From Bacillota bacterium (GTDB lineage: Bacteria; Bacillota; Bacilli; Alicyclobacillales; SLC66), in NCBI GenBank assembly GCA_021821025.1, contig JAKACY010000004.1, positions 1 to 34,046 of the forward strand: a stretch of 34,046 nt of DNA. The letters run 5' to 3'. A program made the translations under genes and the position numbers. Of this stretch, positions 2,307 to 26,733 are shown one piece after another. The notes under the pieces are model-generated. The model did no database searches. It had not been told where the DNA came from and saw only the letters and a list, made by a program, of their open reading frames with translations. Positions within the stretch are counted from its first letter, which is position 1. Each line of letters opens with the position of its first letter.

Positions 2307-2525
2307 CTAGCTGCGCATGGACTGCGCTTTGTTGCGGCGATAGGCGATTTTGGCTGAAGCAAGAATGTTGCCCGTCATCCAGATGCCAAGGAGCAGCGTG
2401 GGGATACCGGTGATCAGGCCCACCCAGTGTTGTTTTGTGATCGCATCATAGACCAGACCTGTGCCGTAGATGCCCAGTCCTAATGATAACAACCAAACGA
2501 TCCACAGGCGAATACCTTTGAACAT
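2307..2525 (-). CDS. Small two-TM membrane protein of the cytochrome b locus
   Basis: This 72-residue protein has two hydrophobic segments (about residues 5-28 and 35-57) joined by a short polar loop (YDAITKQHWVG). It ends in a basic tail (AYRRNKAQSMRS) expected on the cytoplasmic side. A perfect AAGGAGGTCG ribosome site precedes the ATG by a normal distance. It is the last gene of the minus-strand cytochrome b cluster, about 35 bases after the preceding gene, so cotranscription is likely. I do not recognise a family. An accessory or assembly subunit of the membrane complex is a guess from context. Confidence is high that it is a real gene, low for function. Confidence 0.75.
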   Translation of the reverse strand: MFKGIRLWIVWLLSLGLGIYGTGLVYDAITKQHWVGLITGIPTLLLGIWMTGNILASAKIAYRRNKAQSMRS

Positions 2526-2559
2526 GTCACTTCGACCTCCTTACAGAATCCGCTTGATG

Positions 2560-3666
2560 CTATGCGTGCAGCGGTGAGCGTACAGAAGCAGCCGGTTCTT
2601 TTTGTTGATAGCAGTTTGGTGTGACGTTCTTGCTTGCTACAGGCGTCCTCGTATCTTTAAACTCTTTTTCGCATGATGCGCGCAAGGCACACGTTTCACA
2701 TAAGCGATTTTTCTCCAGTCGGTTATACCAATCCCGCCAGATGATACGGTGAACTGGCAGTGCGCGTGGCAGTTTATTCAACCCTGGGATAAATGGAACC
2801 AGGATGAGGAGGAAGAATAAAAGACCTACAGTATAAGCTGCTGCTTGGTCGCCAGCCGATGAGGTGTTCCAAGGCGGAATCTGGTAAAAGAAGGTGTACG
2901 GTGTCAGCCACCATGGACCTGGAAACGCCGACTCATCGTGGTTGATGCCCCATTGTTCGCCAGACATGTCGAGTTGATTTGCAATCTTATGCAGCGCCTG
3001 GCCCTGTAAAAATAACAGGTCGTTTTGTACGTTGTAACGGTACACGCCATTGTTGGTCTCATGGTTCAACGCGCCAGACAACAGGCCAGAGCGTGCCAAC
3101 TGCAGTTCATACTGCATCATGGTTGCTACTGGACCGTACTGGCCGGGCGCTACCATCACATTGCCGTTTGCGACAGTCGCGTGATTCAGCGCATTTTGCA
3201 AGTTTTGATCCCAAGACTGCTGCTGCGTATAGCTCGCTGTAGCGTAAGTATGGATCGCCTGCGACAATGCCTGGTTGCCGCTAGCCTGCGCGAGCATTGT
3301 GAGCGGCCCGATGACGTCGTCTTGCGCGGTATTTACAGGGTACGGTATGCCCCACCAAGTTTGCGGAGAGAAGCCGTACAATGATTGAATACTACCGGCG
3401 TTGCCATGCCAACCGTTGTTATATGGGGGCCCGTAAGATGCAATCGATCCAGATCCATTCAGATCACCAAGCGCTGTTTGTTCGATGACAACAGGCATTG
3501 TTTTCGATACCGCCTCGTTCGTCACGGCGGGACGGTATGGTGCACCCCAAATGCCAGCCACGACTAGGACTAAAACGGCCACGATAACGAGGCTGATCGT
3601 CCCTTCCTTTAACAGATCGAACTCTTTGGTAGGGAAGCGGAGTGAATCCCTTGTGAATCTTTTCAT
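2560..3666 (-). CDS. Membrane protein with large exported domain and C-terminal Cys cluster, cytochrome b partner
   Basis: About 368 residues. A TM helix near residues 25-43 (ISLVIVAVLVLVVAGIWGAPY) is followed by a roughly 230-residue Gln/Asn/Tyr-rich region expected outside the membrane. A second TM helix lies near 277-297 (VGLLFFLLILVPFIPGL), then a cytoplasmic tail containing CETCALRASC plus a distal Cys in TPNCYQQ. It lacks the PEWY motif and three-helix layout of subunit IV (PetD), so it is not a normal b6f or bc1 C-terminal half. The TGA of the cytochrome b gene overlaps this ATG by one base (TGATG), so the products are probably made together and act as one complex. The track uses TTG at 3669; ATG at 3666 is preferred. 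The C-X2-C-X6-C spacing could bind a metal or Fe-S cluster (inference). Confidence 0.75.
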   Translation of the reverse strand: MKRFTRDSLRFPTKEFDLLKEGTISLVIVAVLVLVVAGIWGAPYRPAVTNEAVSKTMPVVIEQTALGDLNGSGSIASYGPPYNNGWHGNAGSIQSLYGFSPQTWWGIPYPVNTAQDDVIGPLTMLAQASGNQALSQAIHTYATASYTQQQSWDQNLQNALNHATVANGNVMVAPGQYGPVATMMQYELQLARSGLLSGALNHETNNGVYRYNVQNDLLFLQGQALHKIANQLDMSGEQWGINHDESAFPGPWWLTPYTFFYQIPPWNTSSAGDQAAAYTVGLLFFLLILVPFIPGLNKLPRALPVHRIIWRDWYNRLEKNRLCETCALRASCEKEFKDTRTPVASKNVTPNCYQQKEPAASVRSPLHA

Positions 3667-4277
3667 CAACGACCACCGCCTTTTTTCATCTTAGCTGGAT
3701 ACGGTGGAACAACGCCCATTCGGCGAACCGCCACGAGGTGCCATGCGACCAGCAGGATCAAAATGGCGGGTAAAACGGCGATGTGTAAGCCGTAGATTTG
3801 GCCGTTATTGAGCGCGTTAAAAAATCCGTCAAGGCCAGCGCCGTTAAATGCGTCTTTGCTTTGAACCTGATTCCACTGCGAAAAGAAATCGCCGCGAGAT
3901 AGATACCCAGTGAAAGCAGTCACGACAGATACGCCAAATGATAACGCGCCTAAAACCCATGTAAAACTTCTGCCTTCGCGCCATGAACCCATGAAAAATT
4001 GTCCAACCAAGTGCATAGTCATGAAGAAGAAAAATGCCTGTACGCTCCAAAAGTGAACACTGCGAAAGTAGTCGCCCATCACGGATGACTGATACCAGAG
4101 AGGTCCTTTGGATGCCATGATAATTCCAGAAACGATAACGATGACCAAGCTACTCAGTGTGAGTACTCCGAAGCTATATACGAGCGATGAAACATAAATA
4201 GGTTGCTCTGATGGGAGAAGCTTTTCCCACGCAAGCTGCTCAGATACTTTGGTCCGAACTTGCGTTGTCCAGTTCAT
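3666..4277 (-). CDS. Cytochrome b6-like di-heme membrane protein
   Basis: This 203-residue, four-helix protein matches the N-terminal half of cytochrome b. Helix B holds two His 14 residues apart (VHFWSVQAFFFFMTMH) and helix D two His 15 apart (LHIAVLPAILILLVAWH), the pattern expected for two b hemes as in cytochrome b6. The position that carries the heme-c-binding Cys in b6 (FYC in the family) reads VYS here, so a third covalent heme is unlikely. No Rieske protein, cytochrome c or PetD gene is nearby. It probably takes electrons from menaquinol. The start overlaps the upstream miniprotein stop by ATGA, and its stop overlaps the next ATG. Confidence 0.88.
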   Translation of the reverse strand: MNWTTQVRTKVSEQLAWEKLLPSEQPIYVSSLVYSFGVLTLSSLVIVIVSGIIMASKGPLWYQSSVMGDYFRSVHFWSVQAFFFFMTMHLVGQFFMGSWREGRSFTWVLGALSFGVSVVTAFTGYLSRGDFFSQWNQVQSKDAFNGAGLDGFFNALNNGQIYGLHIAVLPAILILLVAWHLVAVRRMGVVPPYPAKMKKGGGR

Positions 4278-4390
4278 TTATGGTTTTTCTCCTTTCCATG
4301 TGGATACTTTGCAACAGCGAATATGGCAAAAACAATCAGCCATAAGAAGCCGGCATAATAATTGGGCCAGGCGTTCGCCAGATCGACCAT
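4274..4390 (-). CDS. 38-residue single-TM miniprotein, not in ORF track
   Basis: Below the track cut-off. The minus strand reads MVDLANAWPNYYAGFLWLIV, then a hydrophobic stretch ending VAKYPHGKEKNHK. It has one TM helix (about residues 13-27), an aromatic N-terminal face and a basic C-terminal tail. A strong AAGGAG site lies eight bases before the ATG. The TGA overlaps the ATG of the cytochrome b6-like gene (ATGA), the typical sign of translational coupling. Small single-helix subunits are common in cytochrome b complexes (the Pet small subunits), so it may be a subunit of this one. That role is inference; the coding call rests on the SD, the overlap and the TM pattern. Confidence 0.75.
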   Translation of the reverse strand: MVDLANAWPNYYAGFLWLIVFAIFAVAKYPHGKEKNHK

Positions 4391-4470
4391 TTGCTTATCT
4401 CCTTTCTGGCTTGATGCGCGATATTATCGGTGGATCTACTATCCAAATTAATACAAATAGCTGTCACCAC

Positions 4471-4486
4471 TGTGATATTGGTCACG
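4471..4486. promoter_or_regulatory. CRP/FNR-family-like operator
   Basis: TGTGATATTGGTCACG fits the TGTGA-N6-TCAC(A) consensus of CRP/FNR regulators. It lies about 90 bases before the first gene of the cytochrome b locus. If TAATAT at 4421-4426 is the -10, the site centre is near -62, a known activator position. The protein that binds is not in the window. Confidence 0.4.
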
Positions 4487-4594
4487 CAAGGCCATGTATG
4501 TTTAATTAACATTCAATGAATTAATTACGACATTACGAACAGGTCCGTTACATCGGTAATTAATCTGCGTTATTACAATACTTCATGAACGGCT

Positions 4595-4610
4595 TGTGTA
4601 ACATGGCACA
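4595..4610. promoter_or_regulatory. Second weaker CRP/FNR-like palindrome
   Basis: TGTGTAACATGGCACA keeps the outer TGTG-N8-CACA of the same consensus, with a wider inverted repeat TTGTG/CACAA. Its centre is 124 bases from the first site. It may be a weaker or upstream site, or chance. Confidence 0.25.
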
Positions 4611-4824
4611 AACGGATCGGTGTGCTAGTCGTATATGACCATCTTGAAGCGGCGTTATGAGATAAATAGGTTGGTATACAATCGGTTGTCTTGGAAAAAG
4701 AACCAGATCACGCGGCTCATTTTGTGATCGACGACCGGGATATGTGGTGATTGGAGAGCGGATTAACATAGGTGGTCACTATACAATCCATTTCATGAGT
4801 AGAATTTTGGCAGTGGTTTCATAC

Positions 4825-4854
4825 TTGCTTACGAAAACGTTTTGGTAGTATACT
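4825..4854 (+). promoter_or_regulatory. lacI promoter with internal LacI-type operator
   Basis: TTGCTT (-35) and TATACT (-10) are 18 bases apart. The palindrome AAAACGTTTT (4834-4843, within CGAAAACGTTTTGG) fills the spacer. An operator at this place blocks RNA polymerase, so the LacI protein probably represses its own gene. The centre AACGTT matches the better palindrome before the glycosidase gene. Confidence 0.65.
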
Positions 4855-4891
4855 CGCGTCATAAGGAAATCGTATTCAATGGGGTGATCGT

Positions 4892-11649: not shown

Positions 11650-11690
11650 GGTGTGGCTTATATGCCTGCCCGTAGGAGCCATTGTTATAT
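11641..11690 (+). terminator. Riboswitch-controlled terminator
   Basis: GGCTCCTACGG (11641-11651) and CCGTAGGAGCC (11670-11680) form a perfect 11-bp stem with an 18-base loop, followed by the modest T-rich tract ATTGTTATAT. The 5' arm overlaps the fluoride aptamer, giving a transcriptional switch that is off without fluoride. Confidence 0.8.
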
Positions 11691-11706
11691 ACAAGGAGTG
11701 ATTGCC

Positions 11707-12102
11707 GTGATCGTAGTATCTATTATCATCGGCGGCATGATTGGGGGAGCCATGCGCTTTGTGCTTGAGACGGTTATTCCCACGCCGCTGTCGTTACCTT
11801 TGGGGACATTGCTGATCAATTTAAGCGGAGCATTTTGCCTCGGATTGTTTTATGCGCTTGCAGACAAAAAGGGATATAAACCTTATATTCGAGCGGGCAT
11901 TGGAACGGGTATTATCGGATCTTATACAACCTTTTCCACGATGAGTCTAGAGATGACGGAACTTGCGAAACGGGCTTTTGCGCTGGCTGCGTTATACGGG
12001 GTCATCAGCGTCGTCTGCGGCGTTTTGCTCGTCGCAGCGGGTGAGCGTGTGGTGGAAGCTATTTTTAAACATCCGTTAGACGAAGAGAAGGTGCCAGTAT
12101 GA
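11707..12102 (+). CDS. crcB: Fluoride ion channel CrcB/Fluc, first copy
   Basis: 131 residues with four TM helices. Signatures are the N-terminal GGMIGGAMRF, LPLGTLLINLSGAFCLG (pore Asn) and GIIGSYTTFSTMSLE (the TTFST phenylalanine/polar track). The protein exports fluoride passively across the membrane as a dual-topology dimer. The track start at 11653 lies in the riboswitch terminator; GTG 11707 after AAGGAG is right. Its stop overlaps the ATG of the second crcB. Two unequal crcB genes in tandem usually encode fixed-topology partners of a heterodimer. Confidence 0.95.
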   Translation: MIVVSIIIGGMIGGAMRFVLETVIPTPLSLPLGTLLINLSGAFCLGLFYALADKKGYKPYIRAGIGTGIIGSYTTFSTMSLEMTELAKRAFALAALYGVISVVCGVLLVAAGERVVEAIFKHPLDEEKVPV

Positions 12103-12467
12103 TGATGGCTTTAAATACATTCTTGGTTAGCCTCGGCGCTGCAACGGGGTCTGTCTCAAGATATGGTGTAGGAAAGTTGTTTGAGAGGGTGACGAAGAGT
12201 CGTTTTCCTTGGGGCACCTGGGTGATCAATCTTACAGGGACCCTGCTGATCGGAATCTTCTTTCGGGACTTGGAGAGTGTTCGCCAAGATCGTGAATGGT
12301 GGATGCTTTTGGGCACAGGGTTTTGCGGCGGTTATACGACGTTTTCCACCATGTCTGTCGAGGCTAGGAGGCTGTTTAGAAGCGGATCTTGGCTCATTGC
12401 GGTGCTATACTTGGTCAGTTCGCTAGGACTGGGAATTTTGATCGCTTACTTGACGCAGTGGATCTAG
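12099..12467 (+). CDS. crcB: Fluoride ion channel CrcB/Fluc, second copy
   Basis: 122 residues with four TM helices: SLGAATGSVSRYGVG, FPWGTWVINLTGTLLIG and GFCGGYTTFSTMSVEA correspond block by block to the first copy. The ATG overlaps the preceding stop (ATGA), so the two are coupled, consistent with a 1:1 heterodimer. The charged loop FFRDLESVRQDREWW follows the pore helix. Under the fluoride riboswitch. No clear terminator follows. Confidence 0.95.
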   Translation: MMMALNTFLVSLGAATGSVSRYGVGKLFERVTKSRFPWGTWVINLTGTLLIGIFFRDLESVRQDREWWMLLGTGFCGGYTTFSTMSVEARRLFRSGSWLIAVLYLVSSLGLGILIAYLTQWI

Positions 12468-12572
12468 TCAGCATCGTGATCTGGACATTTCCATTTTTCA
12501 AGCTCATTTTTAACTAATTTCAAGCCTTTCTACAGGTTTCATGGTTAGAGTTGGGACATGGAGGTGGTTTAC

Positions 12573-12881
12573 ATGTGGTCCATGAAGAGAACTGTCACCT
12601 TGACTCTTGTGGCGGTTGTGGGGTCCGCCATCGCAATACAAGTCACCTCAAACGCCCCTGGATACACGTTGCCATCTGTCGGGGCTTTGCAAGTGCAGCA
12701 CGTAAAGGCAGCAGCGGATCAAAAACGTCTGCAAGTGGCGCAACAACATAAACAGGCAACGCAATTGACGATGGCAATTGGAAAGATACAGCAGCAGATA
12801 TCTGAGTTAAAGAGTAACTATACAACTCATCTCAATCAGTTGGCTCGGCAAGGTGTGATCCAACTGTCCCCTAATAATTAA
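12573..12881 (+). CDS. Small membrane-anchored coiled-coil protein
   Basis: 102 residues from the ATG at 12573, which follows GGAGGTGG; the track start at 12558 would put that SD inside the gene. An N-terminal hydrophobic helix (about TVTLTLVAVVGSAIAIQV) can be a signal anchor. Residues about 40-90 are Gln/Lys/Ala-rich with heptad-like spacing (DQKRLQVAQQHKQATQL, IGKIQQQISELKSNY), suggesting a coiled coil outside the membrane. I do not recognise a family. It is first of four closely packed genes ending in a ferric-reductase-like protein and apbE, so a structural role for that system is inferred. Confidence 0.7.
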   Translation: MWSMKRTVTLTLVAVVGSAIAIQVTSNAPGYTLPSVGALQVQHVKAAADQKRLQVAQQHKQATQLTMAIGKIQQQISELKSNYTTHLNQLARQGVIQLSPNN

Positions 12882-12899
12882 ATGAAAGGACATCACTAA

Positions 12900-13346
12900 A
12901 TGACGGTTGCTAATCCATCGGATAAAGCCGCCAGAGAGCGGACAATCAGCCAAATTCTGCAGGCCTGTACAGTGATCCTTGTCACCAGCGTTTTTTCCCT
13001 GAATTTTATCGCCGAGGGCAACCGCACCGTACAATCACTGAATCAAAGCGGTCCGTACCAGGATCAGTTGCGTCACATGATCGCAGCATCCTCTGCGTTG
13101 GCGCATGATTTAGAGTCGACCAAACAGGAGGTTCAAACGCTAGGTACACAATACGGTAATCTCTATCAAACAGAGATTCAGGATCTGTCTGTGGTGAATC
13201 AGGTAAACTCTCAGCTTTTAGCCAGTGGGCTCACACCAGTTAAAATCCCTGGGAAACCTCCTGTCGTGAAAGGATTCGCCAATCCATCATTATTGGCGAC
13301 GAGCACGACTCCACCGCCTGTACAGGCAATTACCAGCGCATCTTAA
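12900..13346 (+). CDS. Small single-TM protein with external coiled coil and Pro-rich tail
   Basis: 148 residues. A basic cytoplasmic N terminus is followed by one TM helix near residues 19-40 (ILQACTVILVTSVFSLNFIA). A helical region follows, about 55-110 (HDLESTKQEVQTLGTQYGNL), and a Pro/Thr/Ser-rich end (KIPGKPPVVKG, TTPPPVQAITSAS). An AAAGGA site precedes the ATG. It begins 18 bases after the previous gene and has a similar architecture, so the two may be partners. No FMN-binding-domain motif is evident, so it is not an obvious ApbE substrate. Family unknown. Confidence 0.7.
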   Translation: MTVANPSDKAARERTISQILQACTVILVTSVFSLNFIAEGNRTVQSLNQSGPYQDQLRHMIAASSALAHDLESTKQEVQTLGTQYGNLYQTEIQDLSVVNQVNSQLLASGLTPVKIPGKPPVVKGFANPSLLATSTTPPPVQAITSAS

Positions 13347-13360
13347 AGGAGGATAGGCCA

Positions 13361-14032
13361 TTGGCTAGGAATCGTACGAAGACGAAGTCAACGTGGGTCG
13401 CGCTCATGATTGCGGCCGCGGCGATTGCGACGATCGTAGATGTTGTACTCTCGAATCAGATTCATATGAGTCCGACAATGGCAAGAATGGCGCCGTGGTT
13501 GTTGGCGCGGGCGGGAGGTATCACCGCGTACCTGCTGTTGACTGCGTTAGTCGTTGTGGGGATGGTTCTGTCGAGTGTTCCAAACAGAGAAAATTGGCGT
13601 ATGTCAAAAGTGCTACTTCCATTTCACCGATTTTTAAGCTTATTTTTGCTCGCGTTCTTGGCACTGCATGTGGCAGCGATCTGTCTCGATTCCTACGCTA
13701 AGGTGGGTGTCATGGGCGCGTTTGTTCCCCTTATGTCCAGCTACCGGACGATACCGGTCGCACTCGGAACTCTGTCTTTCTATGCGCTTTTGTTGTTAGC
13801 TGTCACAGCACGCTTTACGCGCCTCTTGCCAACAGGGAGGTGGCTCACGATTCATCGCTTCGCTCTCATCACATTCACCCTGTCGTTTTTGCACGGCGTG
13901 TTGACTGGTACGGATTCACCGCTTTTGACCACAATGTATGACGGTTCGGTGATTACTGTCCTTCTGACGTTGTTTATTCGATATGCATTTTTGTCTCGTC
14001 GCAATTCGGATGTAGTAGAGAGGCAGGGGTGA
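13361..14032 (+). CDS. Ferric-reductase-like b-type cytochrome membrane protein
   Basis: 223 residues and about six TM helices. Four His stand as two pairs across the membrane: H89/H103 (HRFLSLFLLAFLALH) and H165/H178 (HRFALITFTLSFLH). This is the di-heme pattern of the ferric-reductase-like transmembrane domain (YedZ/MsrQ, PF01794 type). ARAGGITAYLLLTALVVVG is the typical preceding helix. The start is TTG after AAAGGAGGATA. The NAD(P)H/FAD-binding reductase half is missing, so it moves electrons across the membrane with other partners. Stop and apbE start are one base apart, linking it to extracytoplasmic flavin chemistry. Confidence 0.85.
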   Translation: MARNRTKTKSTWVALMIAAAAIATIVDVVLSNQIHMSPTMARMAPWLLARAGGITAYLLLTALVVVGMVLSSVPNRENWRMSKVLLPFHRFLSLFLLAFLALHVAAICLDSYAKVGVMGAFVPLMSSYRTIPVALGTLSFYALLLLAVTARFTRLLPTGRWLTIHRFALITFTLSFLHGVLTGTDSPLLTTMYDGSVITVLLTLFIRYAFLSRRNSDVVERQG

Positions 14033-14033
14033 C

Positions 14034-15011
14034 ATGATCCGCCAATTCAAAGCGATGGGGTCACAGTTTTTGTTGCGCTTGGATCCAAAGTCAGGCGATG
14101 TTCCTGCAGAACAAAACTTGAAAGCTATACTGAAGCGTTTGTCTGACGAGATTATGCGCCTTGAACTTGTGATGTCGCGTTTTCGTCCTGACAGTGAACT
14201 CATGCGGCTGAACCAGTCTCTTGGCGAATTTGTACGCATATCGGATGAGATGGCGTCCGTTTTGCGTATCGCGCAAAAATCTTATGTACTGACACATGGG
14301 GTGTTTGATCCACGAGTTCTGAGTTCTTTAGAGGATCTAGGATACGGAGGCGCACCCTTGCCATCTCATGAGTTTATAGAACAAAATAAAACGCGAGGGC
14401 GAGACGTGCGCAAGAGAACTGGAGCGCTTTTTACTTGGCGCGACAGTAACACCGTAAAGGTGAGTGAGTCGATCGATCTTGGCGGAATTGGGAAGGGCTA
14501 TACCGCAGACGCAGTGGCAGAGTGGATCGAACAATTTTGCCCAGATCAACTGTCGGGTTATATCGTTAACGCCGGAGGTGATATGGTTGTCAAGGGTGTT
14601 CAGCATTCTGGTGAACCGTGGTCTATCGGGATAGAGGACCCATTTAAGCCGGAACATTTGATCGCAGTCCTAAGTCCCGCACACAACCAGACAGCGGTAT
14701 GCACCAGCGCGGTGTGGAAACGCTCATGGGTAACTCAAGGCAGGCGAGTTCACCACCTCATCGATCCTAAGACGGGTACATCTGCGCATACCGGTATTGT
14801 TGCAGTGACTGTTTTAGCGGACAACGCGACGATTGCGGAAACGATTACAAAGTACATCCTGATAACAGGTGGAGTATCCGGAATTCAGGTACCCATCGAT
14901 CTATCGTACCTGATTATTTATGAGGACCAATCTGTTGCTATGTCTCCGTCGATGGTGAATCGTGTGACCTGGTTAGATAGAGAACAGCTTGCGCAAATTG
15001 AGATCCGTTGA
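14034..15011 (+). CDS. apbE: FAD:protein FMN transferase
   Basis: 325 residues. Family motifs are SRFRPDSELMRLN, VFDPRV, DLGGIGKGYTADAVAE, IVNAGGDMVVKG, HHLIDPKTG and the metal-site segment near ATIAETITK. ApbE cleaves FAD and attaches FMN to Thr/Ser of target proteins, normally outside the membrane. No clear Sec signal or lipobox is visible here, which is unusual for an exported ApbE; a cytoplasmic form is possible. It follows the ferric-reductase-like gene directly. No protein with the usual TGA[ST]x[ST] flavinylation motif is seen in the cluster, so the substrate is either elsewhere or atypical. Confidence 0.93.
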   Translation: MIRQFKAMGSQFLLRLDPKSGDVPAEQNLKAILKRLSDEIMRLELVMSRFRPDSELMRLNQSLGEFVRISDEMASVLRIAQKSYVLTHGVFDPRVLSSLEDLGYGGAPLPSHEFIEQNKTRGRDVRKRTGALFTWRDSNTVKVSESIDLGGIGKGYTADAVAEWIEQFCPDQLSGYIVNAGGDMVVKGVQHSGEPWSIGIEDPFKPEHLIAVLSPAHNQTAVCTSAVWKRSWVTQGRRVHHLIDPKTGTSAHTGIVAVTVLADNATIAETITKYILITGGVSGIQVPIDLSYLIIYEDQSVAMSPSMVNRVTWLDREQLAQIEIR

Positions 15012-17421: not shown

Positions 17422-17435
17422 GAGGAGTGAGTGCA

Positions 17436-19142
17436 TTGACTTTTTCTGGGGTCGTCGGAATCATAACTGTGGTTGCTTTGGTGCTAATCTTGAGCATCCC
17501 GCTTGGCGGCTATATCCATCGCGTCTTTACAGGAGAACGCAGTTGGTTTGAACCGATCTTCGCGCCATTTGAACGTCTATTGTACCGATTAATCGGCGTG
17601 AATCCGAAAGTAGAAATGGACTGGAAGGTCTATATCAAGTCCCTATTGATTCTGAACTTCGTCATGGCGCTGTTTGTTTACCTGGTTTTTCGCTTACAAG
17701 GCGTCTTGCCTCTTAACCCAGATGGAGTTCCAAGCATGAACTGGGCATTGGCCTTTAACACAGCGGCCAGCTTTGTCAGCAACACCAACTGGCAGAGCTA
17801 TGCAGGCGAATCATCCATGTCGTACCTTGGGCAGATGGTGGCGATCACCTATCTTCAGTTCACGACTGCGGCGACTGGCGTCGTGGCGGCGATTGCGTTT
17901 GTGCGAGGTGTCGTAGCCAATCGTTCAAGTTCACTTGGGAATTTTTGGATTGATTTAATCAAAGTGCATACGAGGCTGTTGTTGCCGCTAGCTGTTGTGC
18001 TCGCGATCGTATTTGTGGGACTCGGTGTACCAGAAACCCTGCAAGGTGCAGCGAGCGTACACACATTGCAGGGCGCTAGCCAAATCATTTCGAGAGGCCC
18101 CGTAGCTTCGTTAGAAGCGATCAAGCAGTTGGGGACAAATGGCGGAGGTTATTTTAATGCTAACTCCGCTCATCCGTTTGAAAACCCGAGTACCATCACG
18201 GATGTTCTACAGATTTTGGCGATGGCGCTCATCCCGACGGCCTTGATTGCGACGTTTGCTCGATTTATCAAAAACCGCAGGCAAGGTGTAGTGCTGTATG
18301 TCCTCCTTACTTCGACGCTGTTGATCGGTGCGTTTGTGGTGTATGCCAACGAGGCGATCGGCAACCCCATGTTGCATCATCTATTAGGGTTATCTGGGCC
18401 CAATATGGAAGGCAAGGAAGTCCGCTTCGGAGTCGGGCTATCTAGTTTATTTACGGCTGCAACGACGGCCTTCACCACAGGAGCCGTGAATAACATGCAC
18501 GACAGCTTGATGCCGATTTCTGGTTTGATTCCGCTGCTCTTTATGATGTTCAACACCGTTTTCGGGGGCATAGGTGCTGGCCTTCTCAACATCTTGATGT
18601 TTTTGGTCATCACCGTGTTTTTATCAGGGCTGATGGTTGGGAGAACGCCCGAGATATTTGGGAAAAAGATCGAGGCCAGAGAGATCAAACTGGCCACGGC
18701 GGCCATGCTCGTTCACCCATTTGTCATCCTGATCCCGACCGCGGTCGCGCTGGTTACGAAAGCTGGCACGTCGTCAATTCTCAATCCTGGCTTACATGGT
18801 CTCTCGGAGGTGTTGTACGCATTCACATCGGCGGCTGCTAATAACGGATCGGCATTTGCTGGCCTAAACGCCAATACGACATTTTACAATGTCTTGCTCG
18901 GGCTGGTTATCATGATAGGTCGGTACGTTTCGATTGTCGCCATGTTTGCGATGGCAGGATCTCTGGCTAAAAAAGCGGTGATTCCAGAAAGCGTTGGGAC
19001 ACTTCGCACAGATACGTATGCGTTTGGAGGTGTCTTCGTTGCGGTGGTTGTGATTGTGGGCGCGTTGACGTTTTTCCCTGCGCTGGCCATTGGGCCGATC
19101 GGTGAACACCTGCAGATGTGGGCAGGTCATCTCACTCGGTAG
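17436..19142 (+). CDS. kdpA: Potassium-transporting ATPase subunit A (K+ channel-like)
   Basis: About 568 residues, ten TM helices. The four filter-like repeats are visible: NTAASFVSNTNWQSYAGES, QLGTNGGGYFNANSAHPFEN, AFTTGAVNNMHDSLMPISG and FTSAAANNGSAFAGLNANT. The N-terminal IPLGGYIHRVFTGE is also conserved. KdpA selects and takes up K+ in the ATP-driven Kdp complex. The track uses GTG 17427, which is inside the SD AGAGGAG; TTG 17436 with eight-base spacing is more likely. Follows kdpF by 14 bases in one operon. Confidence 0.97.
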   Translation: MTFSGVVGIITVVALVLILSIPLGGYIHRVFTGERSWFEPIFAPFERLLYRLIGVNPKVEMDWKVYIKSLLILNFVMALFVYLVFRLQGVLPLNPDGVPSMNWALAFNTAASFVSNTNWQSYAGESSMSYLGQMVAITYLQFTTAATGVVAAIAFVRGVVANRSSSLGNFWIDLIKVHTRLLLPLAVVLAIVFVGLGVPETLQGAASVHTLQGASQIISRGPVASLEAIKQLGTNGGGYFNANSAHPFENPSTITDVLQILAMALIPTALIATFARFIKNRRQGVVLYVLLTSTLLIGAFVVYANEAIGNPMLHHLLGLSGPNMEGKEVRFGVGLSSLFTAATTAFTTGAVNNMHDSLMPISGLIPLLFMMFNTVFGGIGAGLLNILMFLVITVFLSGLMVGRTPEIFGKKIEAREIKLATAAMLVHPFVILIPTAVALVTKAGTSSILNPGLHGLSEVLYAFTSAAANNGSAFAGLNANTTFYNVLLGLVIMIGRYVSIVAMFAMAGSLAKKAVIPESVGTLRTDTYAFGGVFVAVVVIVGALTFFPALAIGPIGEHLQMWAGHLTR

Positions 19143-19177
19143 GACTTTGTTGCATGACATGAAAAGGGGAGTAAAAC

Positions 19178-21238
19178 GTGGCGAAAAGTTCTGTTACGAC
19201 CATGTCCGGCGCGATGGTCAGTCGTGCGATCGTGGATTCGTTTAAAAAATTAGACCCGAGAATCATGGTAAAAAGTCCAGTGATGTTCGTAGTCGAAGTC
19301 GGCTTCGTCATCACGCTATTACTCAGTTTTGATCCCAATCTGTTTGGCGGCAATTATGGGCCTCACTCTGGCGAGCGAGCATTTAACATCGTCGTTACGG
19401 TTATTCTGTTTATCACAGTTTTATTCGGAAATTTTGCCGAGGCGATCGCCGAGGGCAGAGGCAAGGCGCAGGCAGAATCGCTGCGAAAAGCTAAGACGGA
19501 CCTCTCGGCAAATCGTAAGAAGGCAGATGGGTCCTACGAGACTGTGGCCGCTACGACGCTGCGAAAAGACGATGTGGTTCGAGTTATCGCGGGAGAGATG
19601 ATTCCGGCTGATGGCGAGGTCATCCAGGGCCTCGGAAGTGTTGATGAATCAGCGATCACTGGTGAATCAGCGGCTGTTATTCGCGGCGCAGGCGGTGACT
19701 TCAGTTCTGTAACCGGAGGCACGAAGCTGTTATCCGATGAACTCATCATCAGGGTTACGGCGAATCCTGGGGAATCTTTTTTGGATAAGATGATCGGTCT
19801 CGTGGAAGGCGCAAGTCGCCAGAAGACGCCTAATGAGTTGGCCCTATCTGTGCTGTTGGCGGGACTTACGCTGATATTTTTAATCGTCGTCGATACGCTC
19901 GAGCCTATGGCCATCTATGTGCACGGAAAGATTGATGTCGCGACGCTCATCGCCCTTTTGGTGTGCCTGATCCCGACGACTATCGGCGCACTCTTATCGG
20001 CGATTGGCATCGCTGGGATGGATCGCGTGATCCGCTTTAACGTCATCGCCAAATCTGGTAAAGCCGTTGAGGCAGCTGGTGACGTCAATACCCTAATTCT
20101 TGACAAGACGGGGACGATTACGATCGGCAATCGCCTTGCCAGTGAGTTCGTTGCGGTGGGGAGACATACGGAGAAAGAGCTTATCGAGTTGGCCGTTCTA
20201 TCATCTTTGTTTGATGAAACCCCCGAAGGCAGATCGGTTGTAGATCTCGGGAAAGAAAAAGGCGTGTCGTTTGTTCGCGAAAAGTACCACGACGCTGAAA
20301 ATGTCGAATTTAGTGCAGACACGCGCATGAGCGGGCTGACTCTAGTCGATGGCACAATGGTTCGAAAAGGCGCGGTGGATGCGATTTCGCGCCACGTCAT
20401 AGAGCGCGGTGGATCCATTCCGGAAGATCTCAGAGAAAAGACAGACCGGATCGCGATGGAAGGTGGCACGCCACTAGCTGTCGTAAGGGAAAAAGAGATC
20501 TATGGTCTGATCTATTTGAAGGATATCGTGAAATCCGGCATGCGAGAGCGATTTGAAGAACTGCGGAAGATGGGGATCAAGACTGTGATGTGCACCGGCG
20601 ATAACCCCTTAACCGCTGCGACGATCGCCAAAGAAGCCGGTGTAGATGACTTTATCGCGGAAGCTAAACCTGAAGATAAGATGAGGCTCATCAAAGAAGA
20701 GCAGGCTTTGGGTAAACTTGTCGCGATGTCCGGTGACGGAACCAACGACGCGCCAGCGTTGGCGCAAGCAGACGTGGGGCTCGCGATGAACACAGGGACA
20801 CCGGCTGCAAAAGAGGCTGGCAATATGGTCGATCTTGATTCGGATCCCACGAAACTCATCGAAGTCGTATCGATCGGGAAGCAACTTCTGATCACGCGCG
20901 GTGCGATCACGACATTTTCGATTGCAAATGACGTGGCGAAGTACTTTGCGATCATCCCGGCAATCTTTCTCTACGTGCTACCGCAGCTTGGCGCGCTGAA
21001 TATCATGGCACTGACAAGCCAGCGGTCAGCGATCCTGTCGGCATTGATCTTTAACGCGGTCATCATCCCGCTGCTGATTCCGCTTGCGATGAAAGGCGTG
21101 AAGTACCGTCCCATGAGTGCAACCTCCATGCTCATGAGAAACATCTTGCTGTATGGGATCGGTGGAGTGATCGCTCCATTCGTGGGCATCAAGCTGATCG
21201 ACATCATCATCACATGGCTTGGTATGGCCAACATTTAG
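19178..21238 (+). CDS. kdpB: Potassium-transporting P-type ATPase subunit B
   Basis: 686 residues. P-type ATPase blocks are present in order: [14 protein letters not shown] (actuator TGES), [21 protein letters not shown] (TM4 region), [14 protein letters not shown] with phosphorylated Asp309, [10 protein letters not shown] (KdpB nucleotide-binding FSAxTRMSG), [13 protein letters not shown] and [22 protein letters not shown]. KdpB hydrolyses ATP to drive K+ from KdpA into the cell. GTG start after AAAAGGGGA. Full length and intact. Confidence 0.97.
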
Positions 21239-21251
21239 GAGGACTAGCAAT

Positions 21252-21818
21252 ATGATAAACGTGTGGCGATCACTTCGATTTCTCGTGGTGTCCGTGGTGC
21301 TGTTGGGGGTCATTTATCCCGTTGTGATAACAGGTATTGGGCAGCTTGTTTTCCCGTTTCAGGCAAATGGCAGTATGGTTTCTCTAAATGGGCGCATCGT
21401 GGGCTCTGAGCTTATTGCACAGGCTGTCACGAGTCCGGGTTTGTTTCATCCGAGGCCGTCAGCTGTCAATTATGCGGCGAATGGTTCTGGCGGTTCTAAC
21501 CTAGGGTCCACCAATCCTGCGCTTGTCAAAGAAGTGCAAGCAAACATCGCGAATGTAGAGAAGCATAACCCGGGTACGCTAGTATCCTCCATCCCGACTT
21601 CAATGGTCGAATCATCAGGGTCTGGCCTCGATCCGGATATATCCATTCGTGACGCCATGATCCAGATACCGCGAATTGCAGCGGCGACAGGTTTGAGTCA
21701 AAGCGCATTAAAAAACCTGGTTGCTCACTACGAGCAAGGCCCTTTTCTCGGTATCTGGGGGCACTCGATGGTTAATGTGATGCAGCTCAATTTGGCAATC
21801 AAACGAGAGGCACAATGA
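21252..21818 (+). CDS. kdpC: Potassium-transporting ATPase subunit C
   Basis: 188 residues. One N-terminal TM helix (RSLRFLVVSVVLLGVIYPVVITGIGQLVFP) is followed by an exported domain with LFHPRPSAVNY, SGSGLDPDISIRDAMIQIPRIA and the C-terminal VNVMQLNLAI, all KdpC signatures. KdpC stabilises KdpB-KdpA coupling and ATP use. The track start 21219 lies inside kdpB; ATG 21252 follows AGGAGGACT at the right distance. Twelve bases separate it from kdpB. Confidence 0.96.
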   Translation: MINVWRSLRFLVVSVVLLGVIYPVVITGIGQLVFPFQANGSMVSLNGRIVGSELIAQAVTSPGLFHPRPSAVNYAANGSGGSNLGSTNPALVKEVQANIANVEKHNPGTLVSSIPTSMVESSGSGLDPDISIRDAMIQIPRIAAATGLSQSALKNLVAHYEQGPFLGIWGHSMVNVMQLNLAIKREAQ

Positions 21819-21839
21819 TCATGGGAACGAGTGGGACTG

Positions 21840-22955
21840 ATGAATGAGATTCAAGGAGCACCAAGCAAAAAGGGCCAACCGGGTTGGTTGAAACTCTTTA
21901 TCGGTGCAGCGCCTGGTGTAGGTAAAACATATAAGATGCTGCGTGAAGCCCATTCGCTTTTGGAGCGAGGGGCTGATGTGGTCGTAGGATATGTGGATGT
22001 GCACGATAGACCGGAGACAGCAAGTTTACTAGCTGGTCTTGAGCTTATCGCGCGCAGACAAGTTGCTTTTCGGGGCCGTGAGTTTGAGGAAATCGATGTG
22101 GATATGATCATCGCACGCCACCCTCAGGTGGTCGTGATTGATGAGTTGGCTCATAGCAATGTACCCGGATCTAAACACGGCAAACGATACATGGATGTAG
22201 AATATTTGATCGATCATGGCATTGATGTGTTGACTGCCGTGAACATTCAGCATATGGAACATGTGAGTAAAGAGGCGGAGCAGATTACGGGTGTTACCGT
22301 TCGTGAGATTATTCCAAATGAGTTTGTGAAGCGGGCCAATGAGATTGAGGTTATTGATGTCACGCCAGAGACGTTGCGTCAGCGTCTGCGCGATGGCAGC
22401 ATCTATCCTATGGAAAAGGTTGAACAAGCGTTAGAACATTTTTTTCGCTCATCTAATCTTTCTGCACTGCGGGAGCTTGCTTTGCGAGAAGTCGCGGATT
22501 CTGTGGATGAACGACTGCAGCAAACATTTGATCGCAGTAAAATTCCTGGGCCAGTTGGTGTCAGAGAGACGATTTTAGTATGCGTGAGTTATACTGTGCG
22601 TGCAGAGCGATTAATTCAAACGGGAAGGCGCGTCGCAGATCGCATGAAGGCAGATCTGATCATATTGACGGTGATTCCCCATCATCAGGAGTCGTCCAAG
22701 AAATCCCATGATGAGTTGAGCCACTTAGGGCAGCTGGCTGAGCGTTACCAAGCAAGGTATATGACAGAGCAGTTGCAAGATAGAAAGTTAGGCGCTGTTA
22801 TTATGGATGTGGCTGAAGCCCTAAGCGCGACGCAGATCGTGATCGGGCAGCCGCATAGAAGTCATAAATTCATGTTTTGGAGGGACAGTCCCGTCCGCTA
22901 TCTCCTGCATCATATCAAATATGCCGATCTTAGAATTGTTGGGTGGAAGGAATGA
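21840..22955 (+). CDS. kdpD: Stand-alone KdpD input-domain protein 1 (no kinase)
   Basis: About 371 residues. The N-terminal KdpD domain has the Walker A segment FIGAAPGVGKTYKML, VVVGYVDVHDR, VVIDELAHSNVPGSKHGKRY (Walker B/DELAH) and GIDVLTAVNIQHMEHV. Then come DVTPETLRQRL, LEHFFRSSNLSALRELALREVAD and a C-terminal Usp-like domain (ILVCVSYTVRAERLIQ...VIGQPHRSHKFMFW). No TM, GAF or kinase region follows, and the protein ends naturally with an ATGA overlap to the next gene. Short KdpD proteins are known in cyanobacteria and Deinococcus, but here a full-length kinase is also present. It probably binds nucleotide and modulates KdpD3. Start uncertain (GTG 21831 or ATG 21840). Confidence 0.9.
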   Translation: MNEIQGAPSKKGQPGWLKLFIGAAPGVGKTYKMLREAHSLLERGADVVVGYVDVHDRPETASLLAGLELIARRQVAFRGREFEEIDVDMIIARHPQVVVIDELAHSNVPGSKHGKRYMDVEYLIDHGIDVLTAVNIQHMEHVSKEAEQITGVTVREIIPNEFVKRANEIEVIDVTPETLRQRLRDGSIYPMEKVEQALEHFFRSSNLSALRELALREVADSVDERLQQTFDRSKIPGPVGVRETILVCVSYTVRAERLIQTGRRVADRMKADLIILTVIPHHQESSKKSHDELSHLGQLAERYQARYMTEQLQDRKLGAVIMDVAEALSATQIVIGQPHRSHKFMFWRDSPVRYLLHHIKYADLRIVGWKE

Positions 22956-24067
22956 ATCATAATCAACCGGGTAAATTAACAATTTATGTCGGTGCAGCAC
23001 CGGGCGTCGGGAAAACTTACCGGATGTTGCGCGATGCGAACGATCTGCTAGAAAAAGGAATTGATGTGGTCGTCGGCCTTGTGGAGTTTCATGGGCGATT
23101 TGATACGGCGTTTCAAGTAGGTAGACTCGAAGTGATGCCTAAACGCCTCGTTTGTTATGAGGGCAAAACTTACGATGAGCTCGACGTTTCTGCAGTGATT
23201 GCTCGGCATCCTAAAATCGTCTTGATTGATGAATTGGCTCATACTAATGTACCGGGGTGCGAAAGAGAAAAGCGGTACCAGGATATTCAATTTATATTAC
23301 AGAACGGTATAGATGTATGTACGGCAGTTAATATTCAACATGTGGAAAGTCTGCGCGATAAGGTGGAACATATTACAGGCGTCAAGGTGCGCGAACGGGT
23401 GCCTGACGCATTTATAGAACTTGCCGATGAAATCAAATTGATTGACGTAACCCCTGAGACCCTTCAGCAGCGGCTGGAGGAGGGTAAAATCTACGCTGCG
23501 GATAAGGTTGCCTGGGCACTGGAACACTTCTTTCGGCTGGGCAATCTGACTGCTCTGAGGGAGATCGCATTACTCGAAGTGGCTGACGGTGTGGATCGCC
23601 AGCTAGATCAGGAGAGAAAGCAGGACCTAAGTCAAGGCGCATTAGAACCTGCCGAAGGTATATTGGTTTGCGTCAATTATCGGCCACATTCAGAAAAGCT
23701 GATCCGTCGTGGTTGGCGAATCGCGGATCGTCACCATGCCAAGCTTTATGTGCTCGTGGTGCTGCCCAGAGAGGACATGACGGTTGAGGAAATGCGCGAC
23801 CTCGAACGCGTTCGACAACTCAGTTTACAGTTTCAAGCGACATTTATAACGAGAAAGGTTGGCGGTCACAGCATCGGGGACGAAATTGTCACGGTGGCGC
23901 GAGAACTAGCCGTTTCGCAAATCGTGATCGGTCAATCTCCTGTTGGTAAAGGTAAAAAGCTAAAAAGATTTCGCACAAGTCCGCTGGATTATGTGCTGGC
24001 AAACGCGGAGTTCGTGGATCTTCACGTCGTCGCTTACGGTGGGCAGGAGACTATGAGCAGTGGGTGA
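22952..24067 (+). CDS. kdpD: Stand-alone KdpD input-domain protein 2 (no kinase)
   Basis: About 371 residues, a clear paralogue of the previous gene in length and order: IYVGAAPGVGKTYRML, VVVGLVEFHGR, VLIDELAHTNVPGCEREKRYQ, NGIDVCTAVNIQHVESL, DVTPETLQQRLEEGKIY, ALEHFFRLGNLTALREIALLEVAD, then a Usp-like domain ILVCVNYRPHSEKLIRRGW and VIGQSPVGKGKKL. It keeps the canonical Walker A and DELAHTN signatures. Its ATG (22952) overlaps the stop of copy 1 by ATGA, and its TGA overlaps the GTG of the full-length kinase gene by GTGA. The three are thus translationally coupled, as expected for subunits of one sensor. The track start at 22943 is three codons too early. Confidence 0.9.
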   Translation: MNHNQPGKLTIYVGAAPGVGKTYRMLRDANDLLEKGIDVVVGLVEFHGRFDTAFQVGRLEVMPKRLVCYEGKTYDELDVSAVIARHPKIVLIDELAHTNVPGCEREKRYQDIQFILQNGIDVCTAVNIQHVESLRDKVEHITGVKVRERVPDAFIELADEIKLIDVTPETLQQRLEEGKIYAADKVAWALEHFFRLGNLTALREIALLEVADGVDRQLDQERKQDLSQGALEPAEGILVCVNYRPHSEKLIRRGWRIADRHHAKLYVLVVLPREDMTVEEMRDLERVRQLSLQFQATFITRKVGGHSIGDEIVTVARELAVSQIVIGQSPVGKGKKLKRFRTSPLDYVLANAEFVDLHVVAYGGQETMSSG

Positions 24068-26733
24068 TTAGAGTGTCACAAGAAGAGGTTGGCATTCGCC
24101 GCGGACAATTGACGGTGTTCTTAGGATCGGCATCAGGTGTGGGTAAGACGCGCGCTATGATACTGGCGGCACGAGAAAAGCAGCGGCTGGGGCGGCGTGT
24201 CGTGCTGGGATGTTTAGAGCAAGATTATGTTCGAAGGTGGGGCGATGCAGCGGTTGATCTGCCGACGATCGCGCAAAAACGTCACTTTCATAATGGTCAC
24301 ATAGGGGTTGAGTTAGATGCCGAGGCGATCTTGCTCCATCGGCCCGACCTTGTTCTGGTGGATGGACTGGCAACTCCTAATCCCTTAGGGTCGCTGCATC
24401 CACGGCGGTACATGGATGTCGATGACCTCTTATCGGCCGGAATTGATGTATATACGACGCTCAATATCCACGAGGTGGAGAGTCTCAGAGATATCGTTGC
24501 ACAAGTGGCTGGCATACAGGTTGATCAGGCAGTTCCAGATTCATTCTTGGATCGCGGGGCTCACTTCCAACTGGTAGATCTCCCGACAGATGAACTGATT
24601 GAGTTCTGCCTGAAGAGAAACGATGTCGTTCAGACTGATGCGATGCGGCGCTTTTATCGGCCGGGCAATATCTCCGCGTTTCGAGAACTTGCAATGCGCT
24701 ACGTTGCGTCACATGTGGATCGGGATCTTGAGCACTACATGGCGTTTCAAGACATAAAGGGACCTTGGCCGGTCGCGGAAAAACTGATGGTATGCGTGAG
24801 TGCAAGTCCTTTCTCAGAGCGACTCATTCGCATTGGGCGCCAAATGGCCGCAAGTTTAAAATCAGATTGGATGGCTGTACATGTTGAAACGCCGCGTTCA
24901 TTTCGAGCAGAGCCAGGCCTTGCTGATACGTTAACGAGAAATTTAGCGCTCGCGGAAGAACTTGGGGCTGAAGTGGTTTCTATTTCTGGTCATGATGTCG
25001 CGAGGGAATTGTTAGACTTGGCTCAACATCGAAATGTTTTGCAGATTGTGATTGGAAAACCTAGCAGGATCCCGTTTTGGGATTGGCTGCGGCCTTCCGT
25101 GGTAAACCGAGTGGTGCAAGAGGCTGAAGGCATTAGCGTCCACCTGATTCCGGGGCGACCTGGTCGCGCTTTGAACGTCAAGCCACTGCGTCTGCAACCG
25201 CGATCTTCATCCTCGTCGTATACCATCGCGACACTTCTCGTGGCTATACTGACGCTCGCTTTACAGCTCTTAGCGATCAAAACAGGTTTGGTGAACATCG
25301 CGCTGGTATATCTGTTGCCGGTGTTGGTCTGCGCGGTCCGCTACGGGTTCGGTCCGGCGATTTACGCTTCAGTGATCGGCGTGTTATCGTTTGATTTTTT
25401 CTTCGTTCCACCTGTATTGAGTTTTTCGGTGTCAGACTTGCGATATTTAGTCTCGTTTGCCGTCTTTCTCGCTGTGGCTGTCCTGACTGCCAGTCTGTCC
25501 GCGAGGCTGCGGCTTCAGCTTTTTCGCAGCAACCAACGAGAGAGGAGCAACGCGGCTTTGTACGGTCTGAGCCGACAGATGACTGCGGCTTCGGATTTGG
25601 AATCCATTTACAATGGGCTGGTTCGACATGCGAACGATACGTTTTCGGTCCCAGTCGTGCTTTTTTTGCAAGATGAGTCGTCCACTCGGTTACGCTTGGC
25701 AAAACAGTCGGATCCTTCATCTGCATTTGGCAGTTCGGATGCTGACTTGGCATTGGCGACTTGGGCATTTACTCACGTAGAGACTGCTGGCAGAGGCACG
25801 CATACTTTACGTGAGTCAGCGGGCCTGTGCTTGCCGCTGAAGGCTGATCACGAGATACAGGGTATTTTGGCGATTTATTTCGATGATTCAGATTCTTCCT
25901 TGATGCCTGAACGGATCAGATTAGCTGAGGCGCTTGTCGATGTAGCTTCGATGGCCATCGTTCGCATCAAATTGGAAGAAGAAGCGAAAGTGGCGCACCT
26001 TACGGCTGAGTCTGAGCGCTTAAGAACGGCGCTGCTAGATTCGATTTCCCATGAACTGCGCACGCCGCTCACTGCTATCATCGGATCTGTAACAGGCATG
26101 ATTGAGTCTGGCGAGAAGTTTTCTTTAGGCGACCAGAGAGAGCTTTTGCTTACGATTCGTGACGGTGCGATGCGGATGAACCGTTTGGTGGTCAATTTGC
26201 TCGGAATGGTGAGGTTGGAAAGCGGGATGCTGCGACTGCGCAAAGAGTGGTGCGATATGGCAGACATCGTCGGTGTGGCCTTAAAGCAGGTAAAAGATGC
26301 ACTGCAAAACAGGAGGATTCAGGTCCAAATCGCAGAGGATTTGCCGATGATCCCAGCTGACGATGTCTTAGTTGAACAGGTCTTAGTAAATGTTCTCAGT
26401 AATGCAATCAAATATTCTGTTGACGGATCGCAGATTGGCCTGAATGTTTGTTATGCAGACCAGTCTATTTGCGTTTCGGTTAGTGACGCTGGGATCGGCA
26501 TCGCCGAGGATGAATTGCCGCACGTTTTCGATAAGTTTTATCGGGCCCGCAGAGCCAGGCGCGTACCAGGGACGGGGCTTGGTCTTGCGATTTGCAAGGG
26601 GATTGTCGAGGCGCATGGTGGAACGATTGCAATCAAGAATGCGCGACCGCAAGGCGTGGAGGTTACGATTCGCCTACCGGCTTGCACTAGGCATGACATT
26701 GTTATAGAAGAAGGAGACAGTGAAGATGTCTGA
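24064..26733 (+). CDS. kdpD: Full-length KdpD sensor histidine kinase with degenerate input domain
   Basis: 889 residues. The N-terminal KdpD domain (about 12-225) has a changed Walker A (FLGSASGVGKTRAM, Pro to Ser) and VLVDGLATPNPLGSLHPRRY where DELAHTN is expected. The Usp domain follows (LMVCVSASPFSERLIRIGR; SxS-X20-WMAVH resembles the c-di-AMP motif SxS-X20-FTAxY recalled from S. aureus KdpD). Four TM helices span about 383-480, then a GAF-like region, DHp SISHELRTPLTAIIGS with His663, and HATPase boxes NVLSNAIKYS, DAGIGIAEDELPHVFDKFYR and GTGLGLAICKGIVEAHGG. It senses K+ limitation or turgor and phosphorylates KdpE. Output is intact, whereas the ATP-sensing input is altered. Confidence 0.95.
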   Translation: MIRVSQEEVGIRRGQLTVFLGSASGVGKTRAMILAAREKQRLGRRVVLGCLEQDYVRRWGDAAVDLPTIAQKRHFHNGHIGVELDAEAILLHRPDLVLVDGLATPNPLGSLHPRRYMDVDDLLSAGIDVYTTLNIHEVESLRDIVAQVAGIQVDQAVPDSFLDRGAHFQLVDLPTDELIEFCLKRNDVVQTDAMRRFYRPGNISAFRELAMRYVASHVDRDLEHYMAFQDIKGPWPVAEKLMVCVSASPFSERLIRIGRQMAASLKSDWMAVHVETPRSFRAEPGLADTLTRNLALAEELGAEVVSISGHDVARELLDLAQHRNVLQIVIGKPSRIPFWDWLRPSVVNRVVQEAEGISVHLIPGRPGRALNVKPLRLQPRSSSSSYTIATLLVAILTLALQLLAIKTGLVNIALVYLLPVLVCAVRYGFGPAIYASVIGVLSFDFFFVPPVLSFSVSDLRYLVSFAVFLAVAVLTASLSARLRLQLFRSNQRERSNAALYGLSRQMTAASDLESIYNGLVRHANDTFSVPVVLFLQDESSTRLRLAKQSDPSSAFGSSDADLALATWAFTHVETAGRGTHTLRESAGLCLPLKADHEIQGILAIYFDDSDSSLMPERIRLAEALVDVASMAIVRIKLEEEAKVAHLTAESERLRTALLDSISHELRTPLTAIIGSVTGMIESGEKFSLGDQRELLLTIRDGAMRMNRLVVNLLGMVRLESGMLRLRKEWCDMADIVGVALKQVKDALQNRRIQVQIAEDLPMIPADDVLVEQVLVNVLSNAIKYSVDGSQIGLNVCYADQSICVSVSDAGIGIAEDELPHVFDKFYRARRARRVPGTGLGLAICKGIVEAHGGTIAIKNARPQGVEVTIRLPACTRHDIVIEEGDSEDV

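Follow-up and report, generated by a model that had tools for sequence, protein, structure and literature searches.

A four-gene operon with a cytochrome b6-like subunit

The window, by which we mean the whole 34,046-nucleotide stretch of DNA analysed, carries a run of four genes on the minus strand reading from 4390 to 2307, and all four open reading frames (ORFs) were confirmed at this site. The features of the operon are as follows.

4391–4891, no strand: intergenic region between the operon and a divergent LacI-family gene (4892, plus strand), judged from the sequence to be the presumed promoter location
4274–4390, minus strand: 38-residue single-helix membrane peptide, gene 1 of the operon (ORF; homologues immediately upstream of b6 in clade A by phmmer)
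3666–4277, minus strand: cytochrome b6-like four-helix di-haem subunit of 203 residues (Pfam and PDB matches)
2560–3666, minus strand: P368, a putative remodelled subunit IV of 368 residues (HHalign, charge topology, AlphaFold2 of the insert)
2608–2700, minus strand: four-Cys motif CETCALRASCEKEF...NCY of P368, residues 323–353, in the predicted cytoplasmic tail (16/16 long forms)
2307–2525, minus strand: 72-residue protein with two predicted membrane helices, gene 4 of the operon (ORF; homologues immediately downstream of P368 in clades A and B)

An earlier reading of this DNA, made from the letters alone (the sequence-only reading), had placed a b6-like half with partners of 38, 368 and 72 residues here; the four ORFs are real and the first three overlap. 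The gene for the 38-residue peptide overlaps that for b6 at ATGA, and the ATG of P368 at 3666 shares one base with the b6 stop codon (TGATG), whereas the 72-residue gene follows P368 after a 34-nt gap. Shine-Dalgarno-like sequences (AGGAG, AAGGAG or AGGAGG) precede genes 1, 2 and 4. A promoter and terminator scan of the operon gave promoter-like matches no commoner than in shuffled sequences, that is, at chance level. The LacI-family gene points away from the operon, and TenA and ThiD genes lie downstream. No Pfam-A or NCBIfam model scores above its cut-off against the 38-residue peptide, P368 or the 72-residue protein.

Three other groups of plus-strand genes in the window are of separate interest. 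Two neighbouring crcB genes (PF02537) overlap at 11653–12467. At 12558–15011, two small proteins lacking Pfam matches, a ferric-reductase-like membrane protein (PF01794) and an ApbE flavin transferase are encoded in series, in what looks like a flavin-based membrane electron-transfer cluster. At 17427–27421, a kdpABC potassium pump is followed by two nearly equal 374-residue proteins with the KdpD sensor and Usp domains only, and then by a full-length KdpD (889 residues) and a KdpE-like response regulator, so that the sensor part is triplicated.

Distribution and gene neighbourhood

Searches for the module, that is, this operon and its relatives, covered genomes within the Bacillota. Among 61 related genomes, 29 have P368 homologues; among 399 spread across the Bacillota, 6 do, the window's own counted. 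Homologues also stand at 19 loci of named or metagenome-assembled genomes, and these carriers include Sulfoacidibacillus thermotolerans and Alicyclobacillus ferrooxydans, A. montanus, A. tolerans, A. hesperidum, A. mengziensis and Alicyclobacillus sp. ALC3. A plasmid search gave no match. The b6 gene lies immediately upstream of P368 nearly always, and the four-gene order is common to many Alicyclobacillaceae-related genomes; it is kept in dozens of loci, an arrangement far beyond chance.

The window's group, clade A, contains long forms of P368 with a Cys-containing tail and short forms that lack it. Clade B shares ~40% identity with the window's P368 and clade C ~23%, and clade D collects copies from more distant families that do not form one group in the tree. 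All module b6 proteins fall on one side of a branch with 100/99 support that separates them from QcrB and PetB, with long branches that make depth and root uncertain.

Some genomes have three to five copies of the module. In two different genomes a clade A long-form module and a clade B module lie tail to tail (L001, 4361–8845; L062, 7181–12622), and there may be a functional link between these paralogues. At another locus (L010, 5263–8635, and L086) the small peptide and b6 genes begin again just 3′ of the first module, where the contig runs out, corresponding to a tandem duplication.

The neighbourhood survey found no neighbour common to most module loci. Recurrent minority neighbours, not taken as functional evidence, are a type III SQR-like flavoprotein, Por/Kor oxidoreductase subunits, a protoporphyrinogen oxidase, a TIGR04053 radical SAM protein, a VIT-like transporter and two-component regulators. 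Some long-form modules (L073, L074, L075, L002 and L080) adjoin the SQR-like flavoprotein, and several of these are also beside Por/Kor ferredoxin oxidoreductase subunits, a CoA-disulfide reductase and the VIT-like transporter.

The cytochrome b6 half

The b6 half matches the Pfam Cytochrome_B/Cytochrom_B_N_2 families (PF13631, 1.6e-14; PF00033, 1.9e-9) and cytochrome b6 in the PDB (3e-7). The four haem His residues are invariant in 50/50 module b6 proteins and 23/23 canonical proteins, and the two helix-D His residues are spaced by 15 in both, as is typical of b6. The module thus keeps the sites for two b haems across the membrane. When loops were compared across the same 50 and 23 proteins, with a few values off by one residue, both p-side loops were found to be 11 residues shorter in the module (AB, 25 versus 36; CD, 42 versus 53), whereas the n-side BC loop is 34 residues in module and canonical b6 alike. 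The n-side Arg is retained in module b6, with Lys instead in clade C. In these aligned sequences the outer face of b6 is rebuilt and the inner face unchanged.

The sequence-only reading had noted that the Cys binding haem c_n is replaced by Ser, and the comparison bears this out: the position is Ser in the window and Ser or Thr in 24/24 close relatives, whereas it is Cys in 23/23 canonical proteins. The Cys is missing in all 45 proteins of clades A, B and D and present in 5/5 of clade C. The clade C b6 proteins (L048, L067, L068, L069, L143 and L144) combine the c_n Cys with short p-side loops and a P368-type partner, and this clade may be a preserved intermediate stage.

P368 as a probable remote subunit IV

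A Pfam scan of 49 P368 members returned no Cytochrom_B_C match, and sequence comparison with the PDB no match. In profile comparison with HHalign, the whole P368 profile matches subunit IV with 66–75% probability, and the ef-loop and helix F segment does so with 66–81%, varying with slice and template. The profile aligns to the membrane half of QcrC at PGPWWLTPYTFLYQIPPW / P-D-WYFLFLYQILKYFPG and then along helix F, with the whole profile reaching 74–75%. Helix E by itself gives a weak match (7% probability); when the insert is removed, P368 matches a mixed subunit IV profile across helix E and ef/helix F with 85.8% probability, a value that depends on where we chose to splice, and an E-value of 5.3e-6. 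As controls, 18 decoy families and reversed profiles reached at most 2.1% probability, and the P368 score was reached by no shuffled profile out of 300, with either slice tested; in half of these shuffles the local composition pattern had been preserved.

P368 has a basic N-terminus, a long exported part with 5 Lys or Arg in 228 residues, and a basic C-terminus, a charge distribution that agrees with subunit IV topology; it also shares PetD's topology and gene position. The Qo-site motif PEWY is lacking: P[DE]WY occurs in 0/55 homologues, with PGPWW, PGAVW or VGPWY there instead, and this loss is compatible with quinone chemistry at an altered Qo site. No helix G was recognised in P368. The profile matches support P368 as a putative remote subunit IV that keeps helix E and ef/helix F, with ~190 extra exported residues between them. 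The sequence-only reading had found no PetD and an orphan b half with unknown partners. There is no ordinary PetD, and the electron partner is not in the operon, in agreement with that reading; the HHalign match to PetD/subunit IV argues against the rest, since with a remodelled subunit IV next to it the b half is not an orphan.

The ~190-residue p-side insert separates helix E from the ef segment. Invariant positions in it are occupied by Pro, Gly, Trp, Tyr and Ala but never by Cys, His or Met, making a haem or metal in the insert unlikely. An AlphaFold2 model of the insert is mostly helical with fair confidence (pLDDT 79, pTM 0.79), and that of the whole chain is poor (pLDDT 67). Foldseek searches found nothing at E ≤ 0.001, either for the whole-chain model against the PDB or for the exported domain against the PDB and a viral library.

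All 16 long forms, the window included, have the pattern C-x2-C-[PA][LF]-x3-C-x2-EF-...-CY at the cytoplasmic end, whereas the other homologues have 0–1 Cys in the whole protein. Four-Cys patterns of this kind usually form a metal site, either Fe-S or Zn, and the tail may accordingly be regarded as a candidate Fe-S cluster or Zn site.

Small membrane proteins

A one-helix peptide of 28–80 residues (most 28–60), mostly with a ribosome binding site, is encoded ahead of b6 in the clade A, B and D loci checked, and none was found upstream of b6 in clade C. The 38-residue peptide resembles PetG/L/M/N-type small subunits in size only, and the analogy between the module's peptides and those of b6f extends no further. 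The 72-residue protein has a conserved W/G/YG/Y pattern. It was considered as a separate helix G and rejected, with no detectable similarity to subunit IV.

Rieske proteins, bc complexes and cytochromes c in carrier genomes

The operon encodes no Rieske protein or cytochrome c, and no PEWY motif, as the sequence-only reading had reported. That reading had also proposed a non-canonical complex with its partner outside the operon, and the wider genomes support this more strongly than the letters of the window alone could. Thirteen module genomes have no QcrA, no PF00032 protein and no cytochrome c of families PF00034 and PF13442, the c-type families covered, and a partner that is a non-QcrA-like Rieske protein or an unusual haem protein would escape these searches. 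Twelve of the 13 are at least 91% complete by listed values, and one (G054), taken as the Alicyclobacillus sp. ALC3 chromosome, is closed. The QcrA query was positive in 14/14 genomes with PF00032, so the absence of QcrA does not reflect poor sensitivity. Other PF00355 proteins are present in most of the 13, though one (G003, 97% complete) lacks the family altogether. Two findings had been named in advance as speaking against the proposal, namely that the partner is an ordinary subunit IV or that the transcript includes a Rieske/c1 pair; P368 is not ordinary, and the transcript contains no Rieske or c1 gene.

The window's own genome has a canonical QcrA (G000:C118) and QcrBC (G000:C212) on other contigs, and in this organism the module may interact with QcrA. 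Across the 61 related genomes, 12 have both the module and PF00032, 17 the module only, 14 Qcr only and 18 neither. Module presence is thus unassociated with PF00032 absence, and the idea that the module replaces bc1 was dropped. On a further contig of the window's genome (C91; L147, 652–3467) a Rieske protein is encoded beside a 701-residue molybdopterin oxidoreductase-like protein, possibly an arsenite oxidase.

Comparison with known systems

The closest comparison is with the Firmicutes b6f-type complexes (QcrABC, or PetB with PetD). Shared features are the split b6 with four helices, four His and the 15-residue helix-D spacing, together with, on the profile matches, a putative subunit IV that retains helix E and ef/helix F. 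Unlike these complexes, the module lacks a Rieske protein, cytochrome c or f and PEWY, and has lost the c_n Cys in clades A, B and D; its b6 p-side loops are shorter by 11 and 11 residues, and subunit IV carries the p-side insert of ~190 residues. It also has no visible helix G, a two-helix protein of 72 residues and, in long forms, the four-Cys tail.

The best NCBIfam relative of the b6 half is the ExtP b-type cytochrome of selenite and tellurite reduction operons (NF040969), at 70.8 bits, well short of the cut-off of 290 bits; no other genes of an ExtP-type operon were seen beside the module. The anammox b6-type complexes (Kuste4569–4574 and Kustd1480–1485; PMC12954380) share a b6 and subunit-IV-like core in which subunit IV is remodelled and the p-side partners are replaced. 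However, they retain Rieske proteins and possess multihaem cytochromes c, neither of which is in the module operon, and their subunit IV gains helices whereas the module's gains a p-side domain (PMC12954380).

A petB homologue in a Sulfobacillus operon lacking cytochrome c and iron-sulphur protein genes has been described as belonging to 'not canonical bc complexes', with 'some other function' suggested (Justice et al. 2014, PMC4378227, in the part of that paper concerned with petB), and S. thermotolerans Kr1, which lacks bc1, carries two cytochrome b genes that are orphans (PMC6803676). We infer that part of the clade D loci are of this Sulfobacillus type. The petB part of the Justice et al. 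account (PMC4378227) describes no remodelled subunit IV partner, conserved small genes, four-Cys tail or wider Alicyclobacillaceae-related distribution. Measured against that part (PMC4378227), what seems to be new is the remodelled form of subunit IV together with where it occurs; orphan petB was known before in Sulfobacillus.

Proposed function and alternatives

We are confident, on sequence grounds, that the module has the architecture of a derived b6/subunit IV core. Its probable task is to carry electrons between the quinone pool and a partner other than a bc-type Rieske protein or cytochrome c. Its mechanism can be proposed more tentatively, at somewhat short of even confidence, as a non-bifurcating wire linked to menaquinone. 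The P368 insert would cover or replace the docking face of the Rieske protein and cytochrome c1/f, so that there would be no bifurcation at the Qo site. The two b haems would then form a plain wire joining two sites, one for menaquinone on the n-side, close to haem bH, and a second, which could be a p-side quinone or a p-side donor or acceptor other than a c-type cytochrome (e.g. a blue copper protein). In the long form, the four-Cys tail may link this wire, at its n-side end, with a redox carrier or regulatory partner in the cytoplasm. The direction could be either quinol oxidation or uphill quinone reduction. Taken in full, with the electron wire included, a Rieske-independent membrane complex built from a b6 and subunit IV core is the best explanation of the operon, and we hold it to be evenly balanced between right and wrong.

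The module could alternatively serve as a p-side-to-quinone entry for uphill flow in iron-oxidising acidophilic Firmicutes, with electrons passing from a sulfocyanin-type blue copper protein or Fe(II) through the b haems to menaquinone. In Acidithiobacillus this uphill job is done by a bc1 complex running in reverse. Alicyclobacillus ferrooxydans, A. tolerans and Sulfoacidibacillus are among the carriers, consistent with such a role. However, A. hesperidum and other carriers are heterotrophs for which we know of no iron oxidation, and such carriers argue for a more general role; P368 also conserves no metal ligand through which electrons could enter on the p-side. Sulfobacillus, in the sections of the published accounts that treat its electron transport, has no bc1 but does have an orphan cytochrome b and sulfocyanin (PMC4378227, PMC6803676, PMC4062416), and the reverse bc1 route known elsewhere is missing from iron-oxidising Firmicutes (PMC4062416), which makes the module a candidate there. 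We regard entry from iron as unlikely.

Similarly improbable is a menaquinol dehydrogenase with an outward flow of electrons, which might end on an external acceptor such as Fe(III) during anaerobic respiration. Transmembrane b haems would fit an outward wire, the exported domain is conserved, and anaerobic Fe(III) reduction occurs in several carrier species or relatives (reviewed in PMC8790237). However, the exported domain has no conserved metal or haem ligand, no conserved reductase gene adjoins the module, and about half of the relatives searched lack it.

A quinol-oxidising bc-like enzyme whose Rieske protein and cytochrome c are encoded elsewhere (in the window's organism, the QcrA of the canonical complex) would agree with the intact di-haem core and with QcrA and QcrBC on other contigs of that genome. 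The 13 genomes without QcrA, PF00032 or PF00034/PF13442, together with the clean positive control, speak against this, as do the missing PEWY in 55/55 and the shortened p-side docking loops, and we regard it as quite unlikely. Least probable of all is that P368 is an unrelated exported-domain subunit whose likeness to helix F reflects convergent membrane-helix composition: the weak match of helix E alone and the Cytochrom_B_C result (0/49 members) favour it, but P368 has the topology and gene position of PetD, its ef/F match exceeds 300/300 shuffles and all 18 decoy families, and helix E is co-linear once the insert is out.

The Rieske-independent b6/subunit IV complex therefore remains our preferred reading. 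In its most specific and rather doubtful form, the module would be a distinct Rieske-free b6–subunit IV class passing electrons across the membrane between menaquinone and a p-side partner other than cytochrome c. Its long form would hold an Fe-S cluster on the n-side, and the class would fill a missing quinone step (e.g. uphill iron oxidation) in acidophilic Firmicutes that lack bc complexes. Rieske/cytochrome b complexes are generally held to require the Rieske protein. If the preferred reading is confirmed, the b6/subunit IV core would be usable as a separate electron-transfer device without one, and the module would provide a candidate, open to deletion and purification, for the bc1 gap in the electron transport chains of acidophilic iron- and sulphur-cycling Firmicutes.
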